Origin: Tateyamaria sp. syn59
GTDB lineage: Bacteria > Pseudomonadota > Alphaproteobacteria > Rhodobacterales > Rhodobacteraceae
Direction: 5' to 3'
Length of the DNA stretch: 64,000 nt
Assembly (NCBI RefSeq): GCF_007995245.1
Contig: NZ_VCBA01000003.1
Span: 437,184-501,183 of the forward strand
The notes under the pieces were generated by a model. It had not been told where the DNA came from and searched no databases. It worked only from the letters and a program-made list of their open reading frames with translations. Below are positions 264 through 32,370 of the stretch, in pieces (positions within the stretch are counted from its first letter, which is position 1; every line of letters begins with the position of its first letter). The translations under genes were made by a program, and so were the position numbers.

Positions 264-3221
264 TTATCCTTCGATGGTCAGCGCTTCGTTCACGAGGGCT
301 GCTTGTTGTGCTTTGTGCTGGCTGGCGAGCCCCGTGGCGGGGCTGGCAGAGGTGGCGCGGCCGACATAGAGGGGCCGTGTGTGCTTGGCCTTGATCCGGC
401 TGAGGACCCATTCGATGTTGGGCTCGATGAAGGTCCAGGCGCCCTGGTTCTTGGGCTCTTCCTGGCACCAAACCATCTCGGCCCCTTTGAACCGCTCCAA
501 TTCCTTGACCAGAGAGATTGCGGGGAAGGGATAGTATTGTTCGATCCGCATGATGTAGATGTCGTCAATTCCGCGGGCGTCGCGCTCTTCGAGCAGGTCG
601 TAATAGACTTTGCCCGAGCACATCACGACGCGCTTGATCTTGTCATCCTTGGCCAGCTTGGTCTCTGAATTGCCCAACTCGGCGTCGTCCCAAAGGACAC
701 GGTGGAAGCTGCTGCCGTTGGTGAACTCCTCGGCCTTGCTGACGGCCAGTTTGTGGCGCAGCAGAGATTTGGGCGTCATCAGGATCAGCGGTTTGCGGAA
801 GTCGCGGTGGATCTGCCGGCGCAGGATGTGGAAGTAGTTGGCGGGCGTTGTGCAGTTGGCAACGATCCAGTTGTCCTGACCGCACATCTGCAGGAAGCGT
901 TCGAGCCGGGCCGAGGAGTGCTCCGGGCCCTGGCCTTCAAAGCCATGGGGCAGGAGGACGACGAGGCCGGACATGCGGAGCCATTTTGACTCACCCGACG
1001 AGATGAACTGGTCGAACATGATCTGCGCGCCGTTGGCGAAGTCGCCGAACTGTGCCTCCCACAGCGTGAGCGCGTTGGGTTCGGCCATGGAGTAGCCATA
1101 TTCGAACCCAAGTACCGCATATTCCGACAGCATCGAGTCGATGACTTCGTACTGCGCCTGGCCGGCGCGGATATTGTTGAGGGGGTAGAACCGTTCTTCC
1201 GTCTCCTGGTTCACGAAGCCGGAGTGGCGTTGGCTGAACGTGCCGCGGGTCGAGTCCTGACCTGCCAGGCGCACCGGAAATCCTTCGGTCAGAAGCGAGC
1301 CGAAGGCCAGTGCCTCCCCCGTGGCCCAGTCGAACCCTTCGCCGCTGTCGAACATCTTTTTCTTGGCGTCGATCAGGCGGCCCACGGTCTTGTGCATGGG
1401 AAAGCCGTCGGGCGCAAAGGTCAGCGCCTTGCCCACATCGGCCAGTGTTTCGGGCGCGATGGCCGTCTTGCCGCGCTGGTAGTCGTCCTTGTTCTTGTCG
1501 AGATGGGACCACTTGCCGTCCAGCCAGTCAGCCTTGTTCGGTTTATAGTCCTTCCCCGCTTCGAACTCGTCATTCATGCGCGCCTGAAATGCGGCTTTCA
1601 TATCCTCGATCTCGCCCTCGGGGATCAGGCCGTCCTTGACCAGCCGCTCGGTGTAGAGCGTGAGGGTCGTTTTGTGCTTCTTGATCTTCTTGTACATCAC
1701 CGGGTTGGTGAACATGGGCTCGTCGCCCTCGTTATGTCCGAACCGGCGGTAGCAGAAGATGTCGATCACGACGTCCTTGCGGAACTTCTGGCGGAACTCG
1801 GTTGCCACCTTGGCGGCGTGCACCACGGCCTCCGGGTCGTCGCCGTTCACGTGGAAAATCGGTGCCTCGACCACCAGCGCATTGTCGGTGGGATAGGGGG
1901 AGGAGCGCGAGAAGTGCGGTGCGGTGGTAAACCCGATCTGGTTGTTCACCACGATGTGCATGGTGCCGCCGGTGCGGTGACCCCGCAGACCCGAAAGCGC
2001 GAAGCATTCGGCCACGACGCCCTGACCGGCAAAGGCAGCATCGCCGTGCAGCAGGATCGGCATAACAGCGGTGCGGTCGTGGTCGTTCAACTGGTCCTGT
2101 TTCGCGCGCGCCTTGCCCAGAACCACCGGGTTCACAGCTTCGAGGTGCGAGGGGTTGGCGGTCAGTGACAGGTGCACTTCGTTGCCGTCAAACTCGCGGT
2201 CCGAGGACGCGCCGAGGTGGTACTTTACATCGCCCGAGCCATCGACGTCTTCCGGCTTGAAGCTGCCGCCCTGGAATTCGTTGAAGATCGCTTTGTAGGG
2301 TTTCGCCATCACGTTGGCGAGAACGGACAGACGCCCCCTGTGGGGCATGCCGATGACAATCTCTTTCACACCCAGCGCGCCACCGCGCTTGATGATCTGC
2401 TCCATCGCGGGGATCAGGCTTTCGCCGCCATCAAGGCCAAAGCGCTTGGTGCCCATGTACTTGACGTGCAGGAACTTCTCGAACCCCTCGGCCTCGACCA
2501 TCTTGTTCAGGATGGCCTTGCGCCCTTCGCGGGTGAACTGGATTTCTTTGCCGAACCCTTCGATCCGTTCCTTGAGCCAGCTGGCTTCTTCGGGGTTCGA
2601 GATGTGCATGTATTGCAGGGCAAAGGTGCCGCAATAGGTGCGCTTCACGATAGCCACGATCTCGCGCATGGTGGCGACCTGCAGGCCCAGCACATTGTCG
2701 ATAAAGATCGGGCGGTCCATGTCGGCTTCGGTGAAGCCGTAGGATTTGGGGTCGAGTTCCGGGTGCGGGGTCTGGTCACGCATGCCCAGCGGGTCGAGGT
2801 CCGCCACGAGGTGCCCCCGGATCCGGTAAGCGCGGATGATCATCAGGGCGCGGATGCTGTCGAGCACAGCGCGCTTGATCTGGTCGTCACTGACCTCGAC
2901 GCCCTTTTCCGCCGCCTTCGCCTTGATCTTGTCGCCCGCGCCTTTGACTTCGGCCGGCGCGGCCCATTCACCGGTCAGAGCCTGGGTCAGATCGTCACCG
3001 GGTTGCGGCGGCCAATCGGTGCGCGCCCAGGACGGCCCCTCCGCCTCGCGTTTGACGCTGACCTCATCATCGCCCATCGCCTTGAAGAACGCCTGCCAAC
3101 TTTCGTCGACCGCGCCTGGGTTGTTGGCATAACGGGCATACATCTGTTCGAGGTATTCCGCATTGTGTCCCTGCATGAAGGACGAGGCATGGAACTGGTC
3201 GTTGGGGGATTGGTCGGTCAT
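264..3221 (-). CDS. sucA: 2-oxoglutarate dehydrogenase E1 component
   Basis: This 985-residue thiamine-diphosphate enzyme decarboxylates 2-oxoglutarate and passes the succinyl group to the lipoyl arm of SucB. Family landmarks are present in order: an N-terminal E2-binding segment ([10 protein letters not shown]), the active-site stretch [38 protein letters not shown] and the ThDP-binding FGHNEGDEP, then [15 protein letters not shown] and [20 protein letters not shown] in the C-terminal transketolase-like half. The length is normal for OdhA/SucA. I chose the ATG at 3221, preceded by GGAG, over a GTG nine bases upstream. It follows a sulfotransferase gene by 52 bp and sits directly before sucB in the suc operon. 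Confidence 0.97.
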
Positions 3222-3273
3222 TGCAATCACTCCGGTGGGATGTTTGGGGTCGCGGATGGGCGAAGGTCAGATG

Positions 3274-3993
3274 TCATTGGGCGGCTCCAATCATGCTGGA
3301 GTTCTGTCCGATCAGGCCCGCGTCTGCCGGATCGGTGGAATAGCGGAATTGCTCGAACGCGCTGCGCTCGAGATCCAGAAACTTGCGTGTTCGGGCGGTG
3401 TTGAAGAAGTCGGCAACGGGACTACCCGCCAGCCTGTCATTGCCGGGCTTCAGATGCGCGAGCTCTGCAGACAGCGCTGGCGCCCCGATGCGGCTGAGGG
3501 CCGTGTCGACATCGCTTGCAAAATCCTCGAACCGAATGGCGAAGTCCAAGCACCACGCGCCATTAACCTTGAACATCGTCTCCTGCGTGCGCACCGGAAA
3601 CTCATCCAGAAACGCGTCGAAGCGTTGCAACAAGACGTCGAAGCCCTGCTCGTCCTCCTTGTTGACCCGGAGGCGAAACAGGAACTGTGAGAGGATGCGG
3701 GAGAATGGGTTTCGGACGACCGAGAACTTGAAGTAACCCCGCCAGAGATCTGGAGGCACTTGGTCGTGTATCTCTTGCCCGGTCTGGTGATGGTACCATT
3801 TGGGTTGCACCGGCTCGTCGCCCAGACGACCGCGAAACCCGACGACACCGCATTCGGTTTCAAGCGCAGGCGTCTTGTTCGGGACGGTCTCTCCGGACGG
3901 GACGCACAAATGCTGCAACAGCCGTTCAACAGATGTGCCACCGGACTTCGGTGACTTGATAAAGATGAACTTATGACTGTGGCTGATAAGCAT
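3274..3993 (-). CDS. Sulfotransferase family 2-like protein inside the suc operon
   Basis: This 239-residue protein looks like a PAPS-dependent sulfotransferase (Sulfotransfer_2 type). The 5'-phosphosulfate loop is the N-terminal FIKSPKSGGTSVERLL (about residues 11-26) and the 3'-phosphate site is VVRNPFSRILSQFLFR near residue 100. Such enzymes usually sulfate surface polysaccharides; the acceptor cannot be read here. It lies between sucD (58 bp gap) and sucA (52 bp gap) on the same strand, so it is probably co-transcribed with the TCA genes although it has no TCA role. No strong ribosome site precedes the ATG, and base composition looks lower in GC than in its neighbours, which suggests later insertion. 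Confidence 0.82.
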   Translation of the reverse strand: MLISHSHKFIFIKSPKSGGTSVERLLQHLCVPSGETVPNKTPALETECGVVGFRGRLGDEPVQPKWYHHQTGQEIHDQVPPDLWRGYFKFSVVRNPFSRILSQFLFRLRVNKEDEQGFDVLLQRFDAFLDEFPVRTQETMFKVNGAWCLDFAIRFEDFASDVDTALSRIGAPALSAELAHLKPGNDRLAGSPVADFFNTARTRKFLDLERSAFEQFRYSTDPADAGLIGQNSSMIGAAQ

Positions 3994-4051: not shown

Positions 4052-4936
4052 CTAACCCTTGATCGCCTCCATCACGGCCTCACCCAGCGTCGCGGGGCTG
4101 TCGGCCACCACGATGCCAGCCGAGCGCATCGCTTCGATCTTGTCCTCGGCACCGCCCTTGCCACCGGCGACAATCGCGCCCGCGTGGCCCATGCGGCGGC
4201 CCGGAGGGGCGGTGCGGCCTGCGATGAAACCGGCGGTGGGCTTCCAGCGGCCCTTCTTCTTCTCATCGGCGAGGAATTGGGCGGCGTCTTCTTCGGCCGA
4301 GCCACCGATCTCACCGATCATGATGATGCTTTCGGTTTCGTCATCGGCCAGGAACATCTCCAGAACGTCGATATGCTCGGTCCCCTTGATCGGGTCACCG
4401 CCGATGCCCACGGCGCTCGACTGGCCCAGGCCCATATCCGTTGTCTGTTTCACGGCCTCATACGTAAGCGTGCCCGAACGGCTCACGACACCCACGCTCC
4501 CGCGCTTGTGAATGTGGCCGGGCATGATGCCGATCTTGCAGGCGTCAGGCGTGATGACACCGGGGCAGTTGGGTCCGATCAGGCGGGACGAGGAGCTTTC
4601 CAGCGCGCGCTGCACCTTCATCATGTCCAGCACCGGGATGCCTTCGGTGATGCAGACAATCAGGGGCATTTCGGCGTCGATGGCCTCGAGGATCGAGTCC
4701 GCAGCAAAAGGGGGCGGCACGTAGATGACAGAGGCGTTGGCTTCGGTCTTTTCCATCGCCTCGTGGACCGAGTTGAAGACCGGCAGATCCAGGTGCGTCT
4801 GGCCGCCTTTGCCGGGGGTCACACCGCCCACCATCTTGGTGCCGTATGCAATGGCCTGCTCTGTGTGGAACGTGCCCTGCGAGCCGGTCAGGCCCTGGCA
4901 GATCACCTTGGTGTTTTCGTCAATCAATACGGCCAT
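4052..4936 (-). CDS. sucD: Succinyl-CoA ligase (ADP-forming) alpha subunit
   Basis: SucD binds CoA and carries the phosphohistidine in the succinyl-CoA to succinate step that yields ATP or GTP. The 294-residue product shows the N-terminal CoA-binding Rossmann segment ([17 protein letters not shown]), GGVTPGKGG, the GPNCPG loop, [20 protein letters not shown], and the active histidine in [11 protein letters not shown] near the C terminus. Length and motifs are standard. It is separated from its partner sucC by a methyltransferase and a lipoprotein gene, which is not the usual sucCD adjacency. An AAGGAG ribosome site precedes the ATG. Confidence 0.97.
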
Positions 4937-4981: not shown

Positions 4982-5776
4982 TCATGCGGGGGTGGTCCCC
5001 TTGCGCAACAACGCTTTGATGTTGTCATCGACCGGCAGGCCGACCCGGTTGATCAGTTCGACGGTAAAGCCCGCGCGTCGCGCAACATCGCGCAGGCTAT
5101 AGAGGGTGAAGTAGGTGACGTGGTCGGGATAGCGGAAGCCGCACCATTTGGGCCCGACAACCCGGCGGTTGAGCGAGCCGAAATTGGGCACTCGGACATA
5201 GGCCGCGCCGCCCGGCTTCAACGCGCGCCAGACGCCTTTGAGCACGCCCATCAGGTCGACCTCGTGTTCAAGGTAGCTGTGCATGACGACGCCGTCGAAC
5301 ATCTCGGGCTCGAAATCCCAGATGGCTTCGGCCCCGGCGCCGTGCACGCAGTATCCGCCGCGCTTGCGCATCCAGTCGTCGGCATAGGCATGCAGCGCCT
5401 TGCTGAGTTCGATGCCGTAAGGGGTCATCGGCTCGGGTACGTTCATCAGGTTGCCGCAACCGATGTCCAGCACCTTGCCGTTGTTGAACCATGCGCCCAT
5501 GCGGTGTTGGTTCGACTTGTGCGTCAGCTTTAGCTTTTTGCGTAGGGACCGGATCGCCGGGGAGAGAGATGTCGACCCCTTGGTCGTGACCTTCTTCTCT
5601 TCATAGGTTTTTTCCCAGGCGAAATCCTCTTCCAGCGCAACATAGTCGACCGGATTGCGTAGGTAGGTCAGATCGCAGGTTCCGCAGCGGGCCACGATGT
5701 AAGGTGCAGGCGAGTAGTCCGGCAGGGGTGTCGCCTCGGTCGCGTCGCAGCTGGGGCAGGCGCGCAGATCGGTCAT
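4982..5776 (-). CDS. SAM-dependent methyltransferase with N-terminal zinc-ribbon
   Basis: The 264-residue product begins with a four-cysteine knuckle (C7-x2-C10 and C31-x2-C34) and then a class I methyltransferase fold whose SAM-binding motif VLDIGCGN spans about residues 102-109. This architecture is common among sugar- or surface-polymer-modifying methyltransferases; the substrate is unknown. A very good AGGAGG ribosome site sits just before the ATG. It ends 45 bp before sucD on the same strand and so interrupts the sucC-sucD pair. A gap of 202 bp separates it from the upstream lipoprotein gene; I see no gene in that gap. Confidence 0.85.
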   Translation of the reverse strand: MTDLRACPSCDATEATPLPDYSPAPYIVARCGTCDLTYLRNPVDYVALEEDFAWEKTYEEKKVTTKGSTSLSPAIRSLRKKLKLTHKSNQHRMGAWFNNGKVLDIGCGNLMNVPEPMTPYGIELSKALHAYADDWMRKRGGYCVHGAGAEAIWDFEPEMFDGVVMHSYLEHEVDLMGVLKGVWRALKPGGAAYVRVPNFGSLNRRVVGPKWCGFRYPDHVTYFTLYSLRDVARRAGFTVELINRVGLPVDDNIKALLRKGTTPA

Positions 5777-5978: not shown

Positions 5979-6686
5979 TCAGCGCCACGTGATCCACGCT
6001 CCTGTCAGCTGCTGGCCCAGGAAATTGCGGCGAGTGTTGATCTTGAGTTCGGTACCGGCAGGCGCACCCGCGATGGCCCACGTCTGATCCGCATTCTGGG
6101 CCGCCACTTCACGCAGACTGTACCCGGCGCCGGTGACGGTGGCGACCAGTGCGGTCGCTGTCGCGGTCGGGTCTTCTTTTCGGACAGAGATCAGGCACTG
6201 GTTGATGCCTGCGCGTCCCACGCCGACCGCCGCTTCAAGCTGAATACTTCCGGGGCGTTGCCCGGTCACGAGAAAGTTCGATCCAAAGTCACTCGGCGCC
6301 ACGCCGAAATCGCGCCTGCTGACCTGGCGCAGCCGTTCCAGCACGCCAGACATGGACGGAAGGGAGGCGACACACGCATCGCCAAAGGCTTGTGCTGCAA
6401 GTGCGATGGTGGTCGTGGGGCGGGCGCGTTGTGGCACGTTCGCGGTTTGGGCAACCGGCGTTGCCGCGGGCGCCCGCCCATCCACCGTTGTGCGGATCTG
6501 GGAGGTTGGAATGTCAGCGGCACGCGGGCGCTGGGCCACGGGAACTTGACGTTCCTCCAGCCAAACGGCGCTTGCGGCCAGACCCACGGGCGGGAAGTTG
6601 TCCTGCACCGGGATGTCCGGTCGGCGTTCGCTGCTGCAGGCCGCAAGGCCCGCACACAGCGTCACAATCACACCAACGCGCCGCAT
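5979..6686 (-). CDS. Putative lipoprotein between sucC and sucD
   Basis: The 235-residue protein starts MRRVGVIVTLCAGLAACSS. That is a signal peptide ending in a lipobox (LAAC), so it should be a lipid-anchored envelope protein with Cys17 as the modified residue. The mature part has a Pro/Ala-rich linker up to about residue 85, then a folded domain with two cysteines and no motif I recognise. It begins only 3 bp after the sucC stop, so it belongs to the suc operon. Its function is unknown. A much shorter lipoprotein also sits inside the sdh operon (20828-21157). Confidence 0.75.
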   Translation of the reverse strand: MRRVGVIVTLCAGLAACSSERRPDIPVQDNFPPVGLAASAVWLEERQVPVAQRPRAADIPTSQIRTTVDGRAPAATPVAQTANVPQRARPTTTIALAAQAFGDACVASLPSMSGVLERLRQVSRRDFGVAPSDFGSNFLVTGQRPGSIQLEAAVGVGRAGINQCLISVRKEDPTATATALVATVTGAGYSLREVAAQNADQTWAIAGAPAGTELKINTRRNFLGQQLTGAWITWR

Positions 6687-6689
6687 GGC

Positions 6690-7883
6690 TTAGCCCTTGA
6701 CCGCTTTCACGATTTTCTGCGCGCCGTCCTTCAGGTCGTCGGCGGCAATCACATCGAGGCCGGAGTTGTTGATGATGTCCTTGCCCTGCTGCACATTCGT
6801 GCCCTCAAGACGCACTACAAGCGGCACCTGCAGGCCCACCTCTTTCACGGCAGCGACAACGCCCTCTGCGATCACATCGCAGCGCATGATGCCGCCGAAG
6901 ATGTTCACGAGGATGCCTTTGACGTTGGGGTCAGAGGTGATGATCTTGAAGGCTTCGGTCACCTTTTCCTTGGTCGCACCGCCACCCACGTCGAGGAAGT
7001 TGGCAGGCTCGGCCCCGTAGAGTTTGATGATGTCCATTGTCGCCATGGCCAGGCCTGCGCCGTTCACCATGCACCCGATCTCTCCATCCAGTGCGATGTA
7101 GTTCAGGTCGTACTTGGAGGCCGCGAGTTCCTTGGGGTCTTCCTCGGTCTCGTCGCGCAGCTCGTTGATGTCGGCGTGCCGGTAGATGGCGTTGCCGTCG
7201 AAGCTGACCTTGGCATCCAGCACTTTCAGGTCACCGCTGTCGGTCACGATCAGCGGGTTGATCTCGAGCATCTCCATGTCTTTTTCCATGAAGGCTTTGT
7301 AGAGCAGACCCATAAGACCCACGCACTGCTTCACCTGCTTGCCTTCGAGGCCCAGCATGAAGGCGATGCGGCGGCCATGGTAGGCTTGGTAGCCGGTGGC
7401 CGGATCAACGCTGAAGCTCAGGATTTTCTCAGGTGTTTCGGCCGCGACTTCTTCGATGTCCATCCCGCCCTCGGTCGAGCAGACAAAGGACACGCGGCTT
7501 GTCACGCGGTCGACCAGTAGCGCCAGGTACATCTCGGTCTCGATGCCCGAGCCGTCTTCGATGTAGATGCGGTTGACTTGCTTGCCTGCCGGACCAGTTT
7601 GGTGAGTAACAAGTGTGCGCCCCAGCATCTTTTTGGCTTCTTCAGCGGCCTCCTCGACCGACTTGGTCAGGCGGACACCGCCTTTGTCTCCGGCGTCGGC
7701 CTCCTTGAAGCTGCCCTTGCCGCGGCCACCCGCGTGGATCTGTGCCTTGACCACCCACATCGGGCCATCCAATGCGCCTGCGGCTGTCTTTGCGTCTTCG
7801 GCCCGCAGGACGACGCGCCCGTCCGAGACCGGGGCCCCGTAGCTGCGCAAAAGGGCTTTGGCCTGGTATTCATGGATGTTCAT
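6690..7883 (-). CDS. sucC: Succinyl-CoA ligase (ADP-forming) beta subunit
   Basis: This is the nucleotide- and succinate-binding subunit of succinyl-CoA ligase, 397 residues, with an ATP-grasp N-terminal half ([16 protein letters not shown], then [14 protein letters not shown]) and a C-terminal flavodoxin-like half ([19 protein letters not shown]). The open frame extends 48 codons upstream, but the conserved N terminus and normal family length fix the start at 7883. It is the first gene of the suc operon. A paired palindromic operator lies 115 bp upstream of the start codon, matching the arrangement upstream of sdhC. Confidence 0.97.
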
Positions 7884-7994
7884 GGCGGTTTGATCCCGTA
7901 TAGATACGTCAACGTTGGACCTATTCGACCAACACAGAACCGTGCGTAAACGGAAAATATGTCGCACCAGCGGTTTTAGGCGTAGAAAACCGGA

Positions 7995-8032
7995 TTTTGT
8001 GATCACTGCATGAAAACGTGTGATCACAAAAT
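7995..8032. promoter_or_regulatory. Paired GTGATCAC operator upstream of sucC
   Basis: Two perfect 8-bp palindromes GTGATCAC occur at 7999-8006 and 8020-8027, 13 bp apart (21 bp centre to centre, two helical turns). They sit inside the larger mirror arms TTTTGTGATCAC and GTGATCACAAAA. The near site lies 115 bp upstream of the sucC ATG, and the pair also lies 68 bp upstream of the divergent glycosyltransferase. The same arrangement occurs at 17230-17258 in front of sdhC. A dimeric or tetrameric regulator is inferred; which protein binds is unknown. Confidence 0.75.
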
Positions 8033-8095
8033 TAAATATGTTAAGGAATCAAACGTCAGATGTCGCAATTTCCTATAAAATCAAAGGAAAACGAC

Positions 8096-9094
8096 ATGCG
8101 GTGGGGAACGGTCCTTACGGCAAACGAACCGGCGGCCCTCGTTGAGACGAATGTGCGCTGGCATTTGGCGACCGGAGCCTCATTGGTTTTCGTGTTCCTG
8201 GACGACCCTGATGACCCTGCGGCCGACCGATTGTCTGCAATACCAGGTTGCGTGGTGCGACGCTGCGACGAGGGGTATTGGCGGGTGCTGCGCCCGCACA
8301 AGGGGCGGCCCGCCTCGCAGATGCGGCGGCAGACCATCAATGCGAACTGGGCGCAGAACCAATGCGACCTGGACTGGCTCTTTCACATAGATGCGGACGA
8401 GTTCATCTGGCAGGACAGCGACCTGGCCGCGGAATTGGCTGCACATGACGACCCGCAGAGCGAACTCAACTTACCGGTGTTCGAGCGTTTGTTTCCTGAC
8501 CGCCCCCAAGCCACTCTGTTCGACGGACAGTTTCGCGCAACGTCAGACCTTGCGGATAAGGAGGCCGAGACGGCCTTTGGCCCCTTCACCTGCTTTATGA
8601 AGCGCGGCCAGTATTCACATGGTGCAGGCAAGAGCGGTGTGCAGGTGGGTGCCGGTTTGCGCCTTGGCGTGCACAACGCGACACGCAAGGGCTCCGAAGG
8701 GCGGCAGCGGCGCGCTGGCAAGCGGGTGTCGACGGCGGCCCGACTTCTGCATTTCGACGGCATTACGCCGCTGCATTGGCTGGCCAAGGCGCTCCGCTAC
8801 CGCCAGAGCCCGCCCGAGGTACAAGCCGCGATCCTGCAACCGCACCGTGCGGCGCAAATTGAGTGGCTGCTGGACAATGCCGCTAATCCGGAACAGGCCC
8901 TCAAGGCACATCACGCGCTCTTTGGGCTTAGCGCTGCGCGGCGCACGCAGCTGGCCCGCTTTGACCTGTTGCGCGAGGTGCCATTCGATCCGGCCCTCGT
9001 GCTTGGCACGGCGTGTCCCGATCTGAGTGTCGAGGGCTTTGACGCCGATCTGATGCGGCGCAATCCCGAATTGGCTGGTGTTATCGGGGCCTAG
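8096..9094 (+). CDS. Glycosyltransferase family 2-type protein
   Basis: The 332-residue product resembles the family 2-like glycosyltransferases common in roseobacters. It opens MRWGTVLTANEP and has the metal/sugar-nucleotide motif HIDADEF near residue 100, followed by a helical C-terminal half. It probably transfers a sugar to a surface polymer; donor and acceptor are unknown. I chose the ATG at 8096 because AAGGA lies 7 bp upstream and homologues typically begin MRWGTV. An in-frame ATG at 8060 with a more distant AAGGA is the alternative. It is divergent from sucC and shares the intervening operator region. Its stop codon overlaps that of the convergent cyclase gene in a CTAG palindrome. 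Confidence 0.82.
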   Translation: MRWGTVLTANEPAALVETNVRWHLATGASLVFVFLDDPDDPAADRLSAIPGCVVRRCDEGYWRVLRPHKGRPASQMRRQTINANWAQNQCDLDWLFHIDADEFIWQDSDLAAELAAHDDPQSELNLPVFERLFPDRPQATLFDGQFRATSDLADKEAETAFGPFTCFMKRGQYSHGAGKSGVQVGAGLRLGVHNATRKGSEGRQRRAGKRVSTAARLLHFDGITPLHWLAKALRYRQSPPEVQAAILQPHRAAQIEWLLDNAANPEQALKAHHALFGLSAARRTQLARFDLLREVPFDPALVLGTACPDLSVEGFDADLMRRNPELAGVIGA

Positions 9095-17221: not shown

Positions 17222-17229
17222 CGATGCTT

Positions 17230-17258
17230 GTGATCACGCAAATTTCCGCCGTGATCAC
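17230..17258. promoter_or_regulatory. Paired GTGATCAC operator upstream of sdhC
   Basis: GTGATCAC occurs at 17230-17237 and 17251-17258, separated by 13 bp (21 bp centre to centre). The inner edge lies 114 bp upstream of the sdhC ATG. Spacing and distance match the operator at 7995-8032 upstream of sucC. A further inverted pair TTTGC/GCAAA (17260-17279) follows immediately and may be a second binding site. The binding protein is unknown. Confidence 0.75.
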
Positions 17259-17372
17259 ATTTGCGCAGAATCTTGCAAATGCGCCAAAAAACCGCGCCAT
17301 TCCGCGGGTCCTCGCGCGTGACTCGCGCGTAAAAAGGAGTATGAAAGGGCAGCCGAGGATAAAGGAAGCAAC

Positions 17373-17756
17373 ATGGCCGACGTAAATCGGGGCAACCGCC
17401 CGCTCTCGCCACACCTGCAAATCTATCGCCCACAATGGACATCCATCTCGTCCATCATGGTGCGGATCACAGGCATCGGCTGCCTCATTGCCTCCGTGCT
17501 TGTCGTGAGCTGGCTCTTGGCCGCAGCAACATCCGAAGCCGCCTTTTCAGCCATCGACGGTCTTTTGCGCAGTGTTCTCGGTACGCTCATCCTGGTCGCG
17601 GCCATGTGGGGCATATTCTATCACATGCTGGGTCGTTTGCGGCACGTGCTGTGGGATTTCGGCTATCTTGTGCAAGTGCCCGTGTCCGAGGACATGGCCA
17701 AAGGCATGTTCATCGGCGCCACGCTGCTCACCGTTTTTGTCCTCGTCGTGGCCTAA
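17373..17756 (+). CDS. sdhC: Succinate dehydrogenase cytochrome b556 subunit
   Basis: The 127-residue membrane anchor of complex II has RPLSPHLQIY near the N terminus, three transmembrane helices, the quinone-site pair Ser27/Arg31 in SISSIMVRITG, and the heme-ligand region HMLGRLRHVLWD (His84 and His91). AAGGA precedes the ATG by 7 bp. It opens the operon sdhC-sdhD-sdhA-sulfotransferase-lipoprotein-sdhB. Confidence 0.95.
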   Translation: MADVNRGNRPLSPHLQIYRPQWTSISSIMVRITGIGCLIASVLVVSWLLAAATSEAAFSAIDGLLRSVLGTLILVAAMWGIFYHMLGRLRHVLWDFGYLVQVPVSEDMAKGMFIGATLLTVFVLVVA

Positions 17757-18190: not shown

Positions 18191-19996
18191 ATGGCTGCAT
18201 ATGATTACGAGACGCATGAATATGACGTCGTGGTCGTCGGTGCCGGTGGTGCCGGACTGCGCGCCACTTTGGGGATGGCCGAACAGGGCCTGCGCACCGC
18301 TTGCGTGACCAAGGTGTTCCCGACCCGCTCGCACACCGTTGCGGCACAAGGGGGCATTGCTGCGTCGCTGTCGAACATGGGGCCCGACAACTGGCAGTGG
18401 CACATGTATGACACGGTCAAGGGGTCCGACTGGCTGGGCGACACGGATGCGATGGAATACCTCGCCCGCGAAGCGCCCAAGGCGGTTTACGAACTGGAAC
18501 ACTACGGCGTGCCGTTTTCGCGCACGGAAGAGGGCAAAATCTACCAACGCCCCTTCGGCGGCCACACCACCGAATTTGGCGAAGGCCCCCCCGTGCAGCG
18601 CACCTGCGCGGCCGCCGACCGGACCGGCCACGCGATCCTGCACACGCTCTATGGTCAGTCGCTCAAGAACAACGCCGAGTTCTACATCGAATACTTCGCC
18701 ATCGACCTGATCATGTCGGATGACGGCGTATGTCAGGGCGTGCTGTGCTGGAAACTCGATGACGGCACCATGCATCTCTTTGCCGCCAAGATGGTTGTTC
18801 TGGCGACAGGCGGCTATGGCCGCGCCTACTTCTCGGCCACATCGGCCCACACCTGCACCGGCGACGGCGGCGGCATGACGGCCCGCGCCGGTCTGCCCCT
18901 GCAGGACATGGAGTTTGTGCAATTTCACCCCACCGGCATCTACGGTTCGGGCTGCCTGATCACCGAAGGCGCGCGGGGCGAGGGCGGTTACCTCACCAAC
19001 TCCGAGGGCGAGCGTTTCATGGAACGCTATGCACCGACCTACAAAGATCTCGCATCGCGTGACGTGGTCAGCCGCTGCATGACAATGGAAATCCGCGAAG
19101 GGCGCGGTGTGGGCGCCGATGGCGACCACATCCATCTGCACCTCAACCACCTGCCGCCGGAAACGCTGGCCGAACGGCTGCCCGGCATCTCGGAAAGCGC
19201 GCGCATCTTTGCAGGCGTCGACCTGACCAAAGAACCGATCCCGGTTCTGCCCACTGTGCACTACAACATGGGCGGCATCCCCACGAATTACTGGGGCGAA
19301 GTGCTGGCTCCGACCAAGGACAACCCCGACAACGTCTCGCCCGGCCTGATGGCCGTGGGCGAAGCGGGCTGTGCCTCGGTCCATGGTGCGAACCGTTTGG
19401 GGTCAAACTCGCTCATTGACCTCGTGGTCTTTGGCCGCGCCGCCGCCATCCGCGCCAAGGATGTGGTGGATGCCGACGCGCCGGTGCCGACGCCCAACAA
19501 ACGCTCTGTCGAGGCTGCGTTCAGCCGTTTCGACGGCCTGCGCTATGCCAAAGGCCACGTGCCCACGGCTGAACTGCGGCTGGAAATGCAGCGCACCATG
19601 CAGCAGGACGCCGCCGTCTTCCGTACGGACAAGACGCTGGCCGAGGGCGAAGAGAAGATGAAGGCGGTCGCTGAAAAGCAGTCCGATCTGCAGGTCACCG
19701 ACACGTCGCTTGTCTGGAACTCAGACCTGATGGAGACGCTGGAGCTGACGAACCTCATGCCCAACGCGGTCGCCACGATCACGGCAGCCGCCGCGCGTAA
19801 GGAAAGCCGCGGCGCCCACGCGCACGAGGACTATCCCGACCGCGATGATGAGAACTGGCGCAAGCACAGCCTCGTCTGGTTCAAGGGCAATGAGGCGTCG
19901 CTCGGCTTTCGTGGCGTGCATCTGCAGCCGCTGACCAGCCACAACGATGGCGGCATCGACCTCAAGAAAATCGCGCCGAAAGCGCGGGTGTACTAA
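18191..19996 (+). CDS. sdhA: Succinate dehydrogenase flavoprotein subunit
   Basis: This 601-residue catalytic subunit oxidises succinate to fumarate. The dinucleotide loop [12 protein letters not shown] is at about residues 14-25, the covalently flavinylated histidine is expected in SHTVAAQGG (His48), and the active-site stretch [21 protein letters not shown] and the C-terminal SLVWFKG region are intact. Length and motifs are normal. AGGAGG precedes the ATG. It is followed after only 7 bp by a sulfotransferase-like gene rather than by sdhB. Confidence 0.97.
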
Positions 19997-20003
19997 GGTC
20001 CAC

Positions 20004-20831
20004 ATGGATCAGGCGTTGCACAGCACGGATGATGCAGGGCTTGTCCCCGGACGGGTGCTGCGCATCTATGGCATGCGGCGGTCGGGCAACCACGCGCTGA
20101 TCAATTGGATCATGCGCAACGCGCCCGGCGGCAACGGCCTTTTCATGAACAACTGTCGCCACGGCGGTGACCCCATCGTGACCTGCAGCAGCCTGTCGCT
20201 GTTCGAAGGTGGGTCCGAGGTGGGGCAGGGCGGCAAGTGGAAGCGGATCGACCGCGCCGGGGCCAAGCCGTTTACCGCCGTCTCCTACGAAGACCGCGTG
20301 CCGCCTGCGACACCCAAAGCGCTCTTCGCAGCCGCCGAAACGCTCGTCATCATCTACCGCAGCTTCCTGCACTGGGCCGCGTCCCTTCTGCGCAAGATCC
20401 AGGGCAACGACGGCTTCGGCCCGCTCGACCGCAACCGGATCATGGGGCGCGCCGTCAGCACCTATTCGGACATGCTGACGCGGGTAAAGGACGACGACGT
20501 GGTCCCGCTCTGCTACGACAGCTGGACCGCCGATGAGCACTACCGCGAAGAGGCGCTGACCCGCCTCAACCTGCCGGGCAAAGACCTGTCGCTCGGAACA
20601 GTCCAACGTTTTGGCGGCGGCTCCTCCTTCCAGGACGCAACCGCCGCCGCTGACCTCAAAATCGACCAACGCAGCGCGCAAATGGCAGATGACCACGAAT
20701 ACCAGATGCTGCTCTGGACCGCGGCGCGGGACGACAGCTTCATGACCAAGCTCGCGCAGCACTTCCCTGGCGACGCCAAAAGGCTCGAAACTCTGCGCAG
20801 CACGGCAAGTGCACAGGTGGTGCTGCCATGA
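20004..20831 (+). CDS. Sulfotransferase-like P-loop protein inside the sdh operon
   Basis: This 275-residue protein has an N-terminal phosphate-binding loop GMRRSGNHALINWI (about residues 23-36) similar to the PAPS loop of sulfotransferases, and a YRSFLHWAASLLRKIQG stretch that may form the 3'-phosphate site. It is probably a sulfotransferase or related P-loop transferase for an envelope glycan; the substrate is unknown. It starts 7 bp after sdhA and its stop overlaps the next ATG (ATGA), so it is firmly within the sdh transcript. Compare the sulfotransferase inside the suc operon; the two are not close copies. Confidence 0.72.
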   Translation: MDQALHSTDDAGLVPGRVLRIYGMRRSGNHALINWIMRNAPGGNGLFMNNCRHGGDPIVTCSSLSLFEGGSEVGQGGKWKRIDRAGAKPFTAVSYEDRVPPATPKALFAAAETLVIIYRSFLHWAASLLRKIQGNDGFGPLDRNRIMGRAVSTYSDMLTRVKDDDVVPLCYDSWTADEHYREEALTRLNLPGKDLSLGTVQRFGGGSSFQDATAAADLKIDQRSAQMADDHEYQMLLWTAARDDSFMTKLAQHFPGDAKRLETLRSTASAQVVLP

Positions 20832-21170: not shown

Positions 21171-21950
21171 ATGGTCCAACTGACGCTTCCCAAAAACTCC
21201 CGCATGATGACGGGCAAGACATGGCCCAAGCCCGAGGGCGCCACGAATGTGCGCAAGTTCAGCATCTACCGCTGGAACCCCGATGACGGCAAAAACCCGC
21301 AGGTCGACACCTATTTCGTCGACCTCGACGATTGCGGCCCGATGATCCTCGACGCGCTGATCTACATCAAGAACAAGATCGACCCGACACTCACCTTCCG
21401 CCGCTCCTGCCGCGAGGGGATCTGCGGGTCATGTGCGATGAACATCGACGGCATCAACACGCTCGCCTGCATCTACGGCATGGACGAGGTGAAGGGCGAC
21501 GTCAAAATCTACCCCCTGCCGCACATGCCGGTGGTCAAGGACCTAATCCCCGACCTCACCCATTTCTACGCCCAGCACGCCAGCATCATGCCGTGGCTGG
21601 AAACCAAGACGAACCGTCCCGCCAAGGAGTGGAAGCAGAGCATCGAGGATCGCAAGAAGCTCGACGGCCTCTATGAATGCGTCATGTGCGCCTCCTGCTC
21701 AACGGCCTGCCCCAGCTACTGGTGGAACGGCGACCGCTACCTCGGGCCGGCAGCGCTGCTGCACGCTTACCGCTGGATCATCGACTCGCGCGACGAGGCA
21801 ACAGGCGAACGGCTCGACGACCTGGAGGACCCGTTCAAGCTCTATCGCTGCCACACGATCATGAACTGTGCCAAGACCTGCCCCAAGGGCCTGAACCCGG
21901 CCGAGGCGATTGCGAACATCAAGAAGATGATGGTCGAACGCACCGTCTGA
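21171..21950 (+). CDS. sdhB: Succinate dehydrogenase iron-sulfur subunit
   Basis: This 259-residue subunit carries electrons from SdhA to quinone. The three clusters are all visible: 2Fe-2S at Cys80, 85, 88 and 100 ([10 protein letters not shown]); 4Fe-4S at Cys170, 173, 176 with Cys180 ([13 protein letters not shown]); and 3Fe-4S at Cys227, 233, 237 ([15 protein letters not shown]). GGAGA precedes the ATG. It is the last gene of the sdh operon and is followed by a GC-rich tandem hairpin. Confidence 0.97.
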
Positions 21951-31496: not shown

Positions 31497-31703
31497 ATGA
31501 AAAGTGACTGGATACTAGACGTTCTGACGGACCTGAAGACCTTTGCCCGCGCCAACGAAATGCCCGCTCTAGCCGAGCAGTTGGATGACACCGCAATCGT
31601 CGCAATGGCCGAGATCGCCGCGATGAAGGAAACCAAAGATGGTCAGCGCCACGACGGCGAGGCAGCCGTTGGAACCTATTTTGGAGGATTTGGAACAAGC
31701 TGA
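31497..31703 (+). CDS. Small protein preceding and overlapping luxR
   Basis: This 68-residue acidic, helical product begins MKSDWILDVLTDLKTFARAN and continues LAEQLDDTAIVAMAEIAA. It has no membrane segment. The last 65 bp overlap the start of luxR in another frame. The first 45 or so residues look like a conserved folded helix pair, while the tail encoded within the overlap looks unconstrained. Small proteins of this type precede luxR genes in other roseobacters as far as I recall. It could modulate LuxR or serve translational coupling; the function is unknown. Confidence 0.6.
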   Translation: MKSDWILDVLTDLKTFARANEMPALAEQLDDTAIVAMAEIAAMKETKDGQRHDGEAAVGTYFGGFGTS

Positions 31704-32370
31704 AGGGCTCGCCGCCCTCCAGTCGGCCTCCGAAGAAATACGCGACCATTATGGTGTCGATCACGTGGTGTATCACTGGGTCGACTCCGCCGGGGATCAG
31801 TACGGTTGCGGCACATATTCGGACACATGGCGGGACCGGTATCTTGAGCAGAATTATCTGCGGGTCGATCCGGTCATTCTTGGGTGTTTTCAAAGATTTC
31901 ACCCGGTCGACTGGAAGCGACTTGATTGGAGCAGCAAGCCCGCCCGCACGTTCCAGGCCGAAGCCATCGCTCACGGGGTTGGGAACCAGGGATTTTCCGT
32001 TCCAATTCGGGGGCCCAACGGGCAGTTTGCGCTTTTTACGACCAGCCACTCATGTGACGACGATACATGGGCCACATGGACAGAGGCGCATCGCCGGGAC
32101 CTGATCCTCATTGCACACACGTTTAACGAAAAGGCGCTCGAATTCGAACCGGACCGGGCGCCTGAACAGTCCCAGGCGCTCAGCCCGCGCGAGGTTGATG
32201 CGATGACATTTCTGGCGATGGGATACAGTCGCGCGCAGGTGGCCGACACGCTGTCGATCTCGGAACACACTTTGCGCGTCTACATCGAAAGCGCCCGGTT
32301 CAAGCTCGGCGCGATGAATACGACACACGCCGTTGCTCGAGCCATGAGCAGGGGTTTGATCGTGGTGTAA
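31639..32370 (+). CDS. luxR: LuxR-type quorum-sensing transcription regulator
   Basis: The 243-residue regulator has an N-terminal autoinducer-binding domain with the conserved tryptophan, tyrosine and aspartate pattern (TYSDTWRDRYLEQNYLRVDPVI, quoted in part: SDTWRDRYLEQNY and RVDPV; then DWKRLDWS). It ends in a LuxR helix-turn-helix (LSPREVDAMTFLAMGYSRAQ and SEHTLRVYIESARFKLGA). It should bind an acyl-homoserine lactone made by the adjacent LuxI and control target promoters. The ATG at 31639 has AAGGA upstream and lies inside the preceding small gene, implying coupling. Confidence 0.92.
   Translation: MVSATTARQPLEPILEDLEQAEGLAALQSASEEIRDHYGVDHVVYHWVDSAGDQYGCGTYSDTWRDRYLEQNYLRVDPVILGCFQRFHPVDWKRLDWSSKPARTFQAEAIAHGVGNQGFSVPIRGPNGQFALFTTSHSCDDDTWATWTEAHRRDLILIAHTFNEKALEFEPDRAPEQSQALSPREVDAMTFLAMGYSRAQVADTLSISEHTLRVYIESARFKLGAMNTTHAVARAMSRGLIVV

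Follow-up and report, generated by a model that had tools for sequence, protein, structure and literature searches.

A conserved tandem operator before the suc and sdh operons of Tateyamaria sp. syn59 and its probable AkgR-type regulator

Among described systems, the one closest to the locus studied here is AkgR of Rhodobacter sphaeroides, a regulator named in an mBio study of 2015 in which RSP_0981 is reported to activate TCA genes directly. In its passages on this GntR-family protein, PMC4344238 predicts succinyl-CoA synthetase, succinate dehydrogenase and the 2-oxoglutarate dehydrogenase complex as its targets, and both the family and the predicted suc/sdh targets correspond to the operons marked here. 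Since a suc/sdh regulon is thus described for RSP_0981/AkgR, the observed system is not a new regulon: the operator pair is real and highly conserved, and the regulon is already known in the relative R. sphaeroides. The AkgR regulon passages of PMC4344238 contain neither the half-site autoregulation that is probable here nor the phased A/T tracts found here.

A second central carbon regulator of alphaproteobacteria, CceR, is likewise predicted at sdh in R. sphaeroides; it differs from an AkgR-type regulator in family (LacI), motif and the greater breadth of its regulon. According to the relevant passages of PMC11323563, several TCA enzymes belong to the CceR regulon of R. sphaeroides and lie outside that of Paracoccus denitrificans, where another control is therefore expected; AkgR would fit this role. 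RSP_0981 was encountered in PMC4344238 only in the literature searched, and among the matches listed for GTGATCAC and TGTGATCACA none was relevant by title. The mBio 2015 AkgR paper aside, no report of an autoregulatory half-site, an N12/N13 rule or phased tracts was found in the literature searched.

Paired sites before sucC and sdhC

In the window, by which the whole analysed stretch of 64,000 nucleotides is meant, exact matches to GTGATCAC-N13-GTGATCAC lie at 7999-8027 and 17230-17258, with their half-sites 21 bp apart (Table 1). The inner edge is separated by 115 bp from the start codon of sucC (minus strand, start codon 7883) and by 114 bp from that of sdhC (start codon 17373). Placement, spacing and distances agree exactly with the original prediction, which had also held two identical sites at the same distance before two TCA operons to be very improbable by chance; 100 dinucleotide shuffles of the window gave no GTGATCAC-N13-GTGATCAC match. 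The motif is rare genome-wide as well: with a spacer of 5-25 bp allowed, paired GTGATCAC was found in the 4.57 Mb genome at these two places only, and the reversed-pattern control gave no match. That there is no third copy holds for the window, but a single half-site stands before the regulator gene outside it (see below). The palindrome TGTGATCACA occurs at six places in the genome, once each at sucC, akgR and fumC and three times within long ORFs.

Table 1. Features of the suc and sdh loci (window positions)
Feature	Coordinates	Strand	Basis or remarks
suc operon operator (predicted)	7995..8031	.	half-sites 7999-8006 and 8020-8027; TTTT and AAAA flanks
sdh operon operator (predicted)	17228..17259	.	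half-sites 17230-17237 and 17251-17258; aligned with 65 sdhC promoters
A/T tracts, ~10 bp phase, operator to sucC core promoter	7956..7989	-	alignment positions 39-72; tract near 61 missing here
A/T tracts, ~10 bp phase, operator to sdhC core promoter	17268..17301	+	alignment positions 39-72
predicted sucC core promoter	7923..7951	-	-35 GTTTAC 7951-7946, -10 TCGAAT 7928-7923
predicted sdhC core promoter	17318..17345	+	-35 GTGACT 17318-17323, -10 TATGAA 17340-17345
sucC, succinyl-CoA synthetase beta subunit, first in target operon	6690..7883	-	Pfam ATP-grasp_2 and Ligase_CoA
sucD, succinyl-CoA synthetase alpha subunit	4052..4936	-	Pfam CoA_binding and Ligase_CoA
sucA, 2-oxoglutarate dehydrogenase E1	264..3230	-	ORF; named by eye
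sdhC, succinate dehydrogenase cytochrome b subunit, first in target operon	17373..17756	+	Pfam Sdh_cyt
sdhA, succinate dehydrogenase flavoprotein	18191..19996	+	ORF; named by eye
sdhB, succinate dehydrogenase iron-sulfur protein	21171..21950	+	ORF; named by eye

The suc operon has three further ORFs in its interior (3274-3993, 4982-5776 and 5979-6686), which by eye are sulfotransferase-, methyltransferase- and lipoprotein-like, and another sulfotransferase-like ORF (19947-20831, by eye) is located between sdhA and sdhB; for TCA-cycle operons these are odd passengers. A LuxR-type regulator with an autoinducer-binding domain (31639-32370) is found amid central-metabolism genes. Divergent to sucC, a glycosyltransferase-like ORF (8060-9094, Glyco_tranf_2_4) begins 32 bp from the operator; the idea that the sucC site serves this gene was rejected, as such an ORF is present in just 12 of 98 sucC loci.

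Conservation was analyzed in 295 genomes from 294 genera of the same family as the source. The exact N13 pattern was present in 249 of them (by hand count about 177 with two copies, 67 with one and five with three), while the reversed-pattern control gave none in any genome. The N12 form was detected in 49 genomes, including 16 of the 46 without N13, and one or the other form in 265. These two spacings were searched family-wide, spacings of 10-16 bp in 30 sucC loci and of 5-25 bp in the own genome. A further 337 genomes were drawn from the whole class. Four of the five own-family members among them matched; two of the other 332 matched, once each, which is chance level as the reversed control also matches in one. 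A scan of named genomes listed at least 120 stretches, among which most were from Rhodobacteraceae or relatives by title; those listed from some unrelated taxa look like chance matches.

Within the loci compared (own included, some sites counted twice), 89 of 197 N13 sites lay before sucC and 74 before sdhC, and 34 were assigned to neither; the last group includes matches in unrelated taxa and sites close to locus ends. Two of these 34 were inspected, one before a fumarase-like gene (genome G042) and one directly before sucA. All 30 N12 loci had the site before sucC (18) or sdhC (12). With 163 of the 197 sites at sucC or sdhC, in addition to the family-wide N13 count, the paired site is indeed kept before suc and sdh in relatives. 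The operator-to-start distance ranges from 95 to 149 bp in 79 distinct sucC promoters and from 107 to 204 bp in 65 sdhC promoters. Because of this variation the near-equal distances in the window are incidental, and the weight that had been placed on them was misplaced.

At C1:540747, 94 bp upstream of the own fumC, there is a single TGTGATCACA half-site, while G042 carries the full tandem before fumC. In a survey of 61 genomes, 56 had a fumC match and 30 loci were read; an exact half-site was present in two of these, and fumC was rejected as a general third target. As the other 28 lack the exact half-site, its presence at fumC is sporadic.

A candidate regulator and the half-site at its own gene

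The own genome has 19 GntR-domain loci, none of them in the window. Near the sites (20 stretches and other loci) no relatives of these 19 proteins were detected (best E 0.015), and a regulator encoded beside the sites was rejected, since the window has no GntR gene and the loci then compared no GntR relative. A GntR domain search in five named genomes gave 10-26 matches each, and in three of the five, Rhodobacter ruber, Rhodovulum steppense and Defluviimonas nitratireducens, the distance between one GntR gene and the nearest site is about 9-13 kb. This gene closes the suc cluster of Defluviimonas, right after lpd, and in Rhodobacter ruber it lies one gene past lpd (gene names by eye). The three proteins share 74-80% identity with the own GntR protein L167, versus at most 36% with the other own GntR proteins (over at least 100 residues). 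Another own GntR protein, L171, had been the first guess and was dropped when the gene order in the named relatives led to L167.

L167 comprises 216 aa, is encoded outside the window (C6:144963-145610) and consists of a GntR winged-helix domain (PF00392, 54.2 bits, cut-off 27) and an FCD ligand-binding domain (PF07729, 64 bits, cut-off 24.3), the latter being what we take to be a defining trait of AkgR. Judged by family and targets, L167 is very probably an AkgR-type regulator like RSP_0981. The locus numbers of R. sphaeroides suggest that RSP_0981 is located beyond sdh and does not adjoin lpd. A regulator match at E<=1e-30 was obtained in 274 of the 295 family genomes; in many of them (e.g. 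G002 and G193) another regulator-like protein also passes this threshold. The closest solved sequence relative is McbR of E. coli (PDB 4p9f, E=1.2e-19), which resembles the regulator in sequence but differs in its targets; we know of no tandem TCA operators for McbR.

In 33 regulator proteins, N137-x3-H141, H184 and D206 are invariant (216-aa numbering). The metal ligands of FCD proteins are D-x3-H, H and H, and the invariant residues appear to sit at these places, which makes a metal-held acid in an altered pocket possible. A TCA-cycle acid or a CoA ester is the ligand suggested by the protein family and its target genes.

Upstream of the L167 gene a single GTGATCAC begins 16 bp before the start codon. 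The half-site was found within -150 to +30 in 32 of 33 regulator genes, a set that comprises the 30 family genes with the highest scores, the own gene among them, and the three from named relatives; the gene of R. ruber (L192) is the one without it, and L204 has two. By comparison, 2 of 510 background windows of 250 bp had an exact half-site; these windows came from the 30 fumC loci, the two with a site at fumC among them. In 26 of the 32 genes the half-site is preceded by a TTGAC that begins 18 bp ahead of it, and in the other six this distance is 16-20 bp; a direct count in the own gene gives 19 bp. With this spacing the half-site would cover the -10 region of an akgR promoter that has almost no leader, and a repression by the regulator of its own gene through the lone half-site is probable, as far as promoter sequence can tell.

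Promoter geometry and the proposed mode of action

The majority consensus of 79 sucC promoters, TTTGTGATCACA-N11-TGTGATCACAAA, is common to the set of 65 sdhC promoters, where the flanks are weaker; as both sets were picked by exact 8-mers, the invariance of 16 bases in them is by construction. Downstream of the operator, A/T-rich tracts recur around positions 31, 41, 51, 61 and 71, and both promoter sets show autocorrelation maxima at 10 and 20 bp. Between positions 30 and 74 the phase coherence was 0.89 for sucC (79) and 0.88 for sdhC (65); the control region upstream of the operator had R values of only 0.36 (sucC) and 0.21 (sdhC). When the operator flank was omitted, the coherence was 0.85 and 0.87. 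The N12 promoters gave 0.89 (18 sucC) and 0.94 (12 sdhC), with upstream controls of 0.30 and 0.70. When the column profile was permuted, both test regions passed (0 of 5000); this test does not discriminate, since the upstream sucC control passed as well (0 of 5000, period 10.6) and the sdhC control nearly did (60 of 5000). Given one high control, the A/T phasing may in part be a general promoter trait of these genomes.

In the alignment of the 79 sucC promoters, positions 77-78 have a conserved TT and positions 101-104 a conserved A/T, and GTGAC is seen near positions 89-93 in many of the sdhC rows shown. A consensus promoter scan recovered neither predicted core promoter and gave no strong consensus match at sucC or sdhC. 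The likely -35 elements of this genome occupy positions 77-82 (sucC) and 89-94 (sdhC), about one helical turn apart, and by their position the operator would be centred near -97 and -108, respectively. Such a location fits class-I activation as it is generally understood, in which the alpha C-terminal domains occupy the face that the activator is bound to.

Conservation, spacing, co-occurrence with the regulator, the half-site at the regulator gene and phasing are the observations on which we base our explanation, a tandem AkgR-type operator that activates suc and sdh and is combined with a self-limiting half-site; from them we infer binding, dimers, activation, repression and start sites. As a whole we hold this explanation to be likely, with good confidence. 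Two AkgR-type dimers would bind each site, each reading one TGTGATCACA-like palindrome, and the spacing of 20-21 bp, about two helical turns, would place both on one face of the helix. With transcription predicted to begin at 7916 (sucC, minus strand) and 17352 (sdhC, plus strand), the bound pair, at about -97 or -108 from these starts, would then activate RNA polymerase in a class-I manner. The A/T tracts phased at about 10 bp probably assist, by curving the DNA or by receiving the alpha C-terminal domains, and the same protein on the half-site over its own -10 region would limit its own synthesis. The original prediction that one regulator coordinates suc and sdh from paired sites on one DNA face is supported by the 20/21 bp arrangement in 265 of 295 genomes, the dimers being presumed from it.

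Alternatively, AkgR could bind the same sites and repress suc and sdh until relieved by its ligand. Most GntR regulators are repressors, and the overlap of the half-site at akgR with the -10 region would be in keeping with this; however, about 47 bp (suc) and 59 bp (sdh) separate the end of the operator from the predicted -35 downstream of it, which would suit a repressor poorly, and the mBio 2015 study is reported to describe activation of TCA genes by AkgR. We consider repression of suc and sdh improbable.

Joint occurrence of regulator and site

Regulator and site (N12 or N13) occurred together in 261 of the 295 genomes, the regulator only in 13, the site only in four and neither in 17 (Fisher p=3.5e-16). 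With N13 alone the corresponding numbers were 245, 29, 4 and 17 (p=4e-12). The 21 genomes without a regulator match are 20 that were listed and G264, assigned by elimination. SucC was matched in 40 of the 46 genomes lacking N13, and the sucC locus was read in 30. Where the regulator match was strong (16 loci), 13 loci had a perfect N12 site and two an N13 site with one mismatch; one (G201), whose SucC match does not include the start of sucC, allows no verdict. None of the 11 loci without the regulator had a site: 6-8 mismatches were counted for N13 and 3-7 for the other spacers (10-16). One of these, G017, has three mismatches at N12, 130 bp from sucC, and this stretch is perhaps an operator remnant. 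None of the three loci with a weak regulator match had a site either. In one of them, G157, TTTGTGATAACAAA is located at the usual distance from sucC and may be a decayed operator.

Three genomes run counter to this trend, as G019, G033 and G273 have the site despite only a weak regulator match (E 1e-39 to 1e-56). The site without a regulator match was found in four of the 21 genomes, two of which are 77% complete (G096, G264) and two of which consist of 320 contigs each (G114, 100% complete; G256, 93%). Among the 13 genomes with a regulator match and no exact site, six have a weak match only (G054, G109, G122, G157, G195, G281), two have a site with one mismatch and five are without verdict.

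A SucC tree of 52 rows combined the own gene and 22 relatives with all of the 30 loci except G201, with G033 labelled as regulator-bearing on its weak match. Its 14 rows without or with a weak regulator need 10 changes, at least two of them forced by well-supported branches, and 29 of 500 shuffles were as low as 10. Shared descent is thereby lessened, not removed, as an explanation, since the absence is scattered on a one-gene tree with many open forks.

A different transcription factor with the same phylogenetic spread might bind the sites, the regulator gene being just one more target. One regulator was tested in depth, and the control GntR protein L157, present in 15 of 295 genomes, is too rare to serve as a comparator for specificity, which leaves room for this reading. 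It is opposed by the joint absence of regulator and site, by the half-site that 32 of 33 regulator genes carry in their promoter and by the prediction for RSP_0981 in the published passages, and we regard another factor as more doubtful still than repression.

The repeated palindrome is also an inverted repeat, in which TTTTGTGATCAC can pair with GTGATCACAAAA, and could in principle form an RNA hairpin of an attenuator or riboswitch-like leader. Against this, the predicted core promoter lies downstream of the element, akgR has the motif in single copy, and the exact arms are kept in 261 of the 274 regulator-bearing genomes, which leaves little room for compensatory change, although a search by exact pattern cannot show covariation. 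Rfam gave no match at gathering thresholds in positions 1-24000 of the window, and hence no known suc/sdh RNA leader. An RNA hairpin can be practically discounted. A CRP operator is TGTGA-N6-TCACA, and the TGTGA and TCACA halves resemble it but abut without a spacer in both elements, in line with the original view that the sites are not simply CRP. CceR (RSP_1663), for its part, is predicted at sdh of R. sphaeroides in PMC4344238, but its motif [AGT]GTT-N6-8-AAC[ACT] is absent from both elements, as there is no GTT within 7995-8031 or 17228-17259, and PMC4344238 states that no CRP-like proteins are predicted for R. sphaeroides, so that a CRP/FNR-type or CceR site is hardly conceivable.

These findings link a regulator that is described but has received little study with an exact operator, with a loop that is probably self-limiting and with a promoter geometry fixed throughout a family to which, judging from the titles of the matches listed, the marine roseobacters belong. 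With even chances of being right, one small regulator would act as a hard-wired homeostat of the succinyl-CoA/succinate node, in which tandem sites and phased tracts activate and the lone half-site self-limits, with operator and helical phase nearly fixed throughout the family and spacer and flanks drifting freely. The few genomes without both regulator and site would be natural knock-outs, and the small size of the regulon opens spacing, helical phase and the control of the TCA cycle to direct test.
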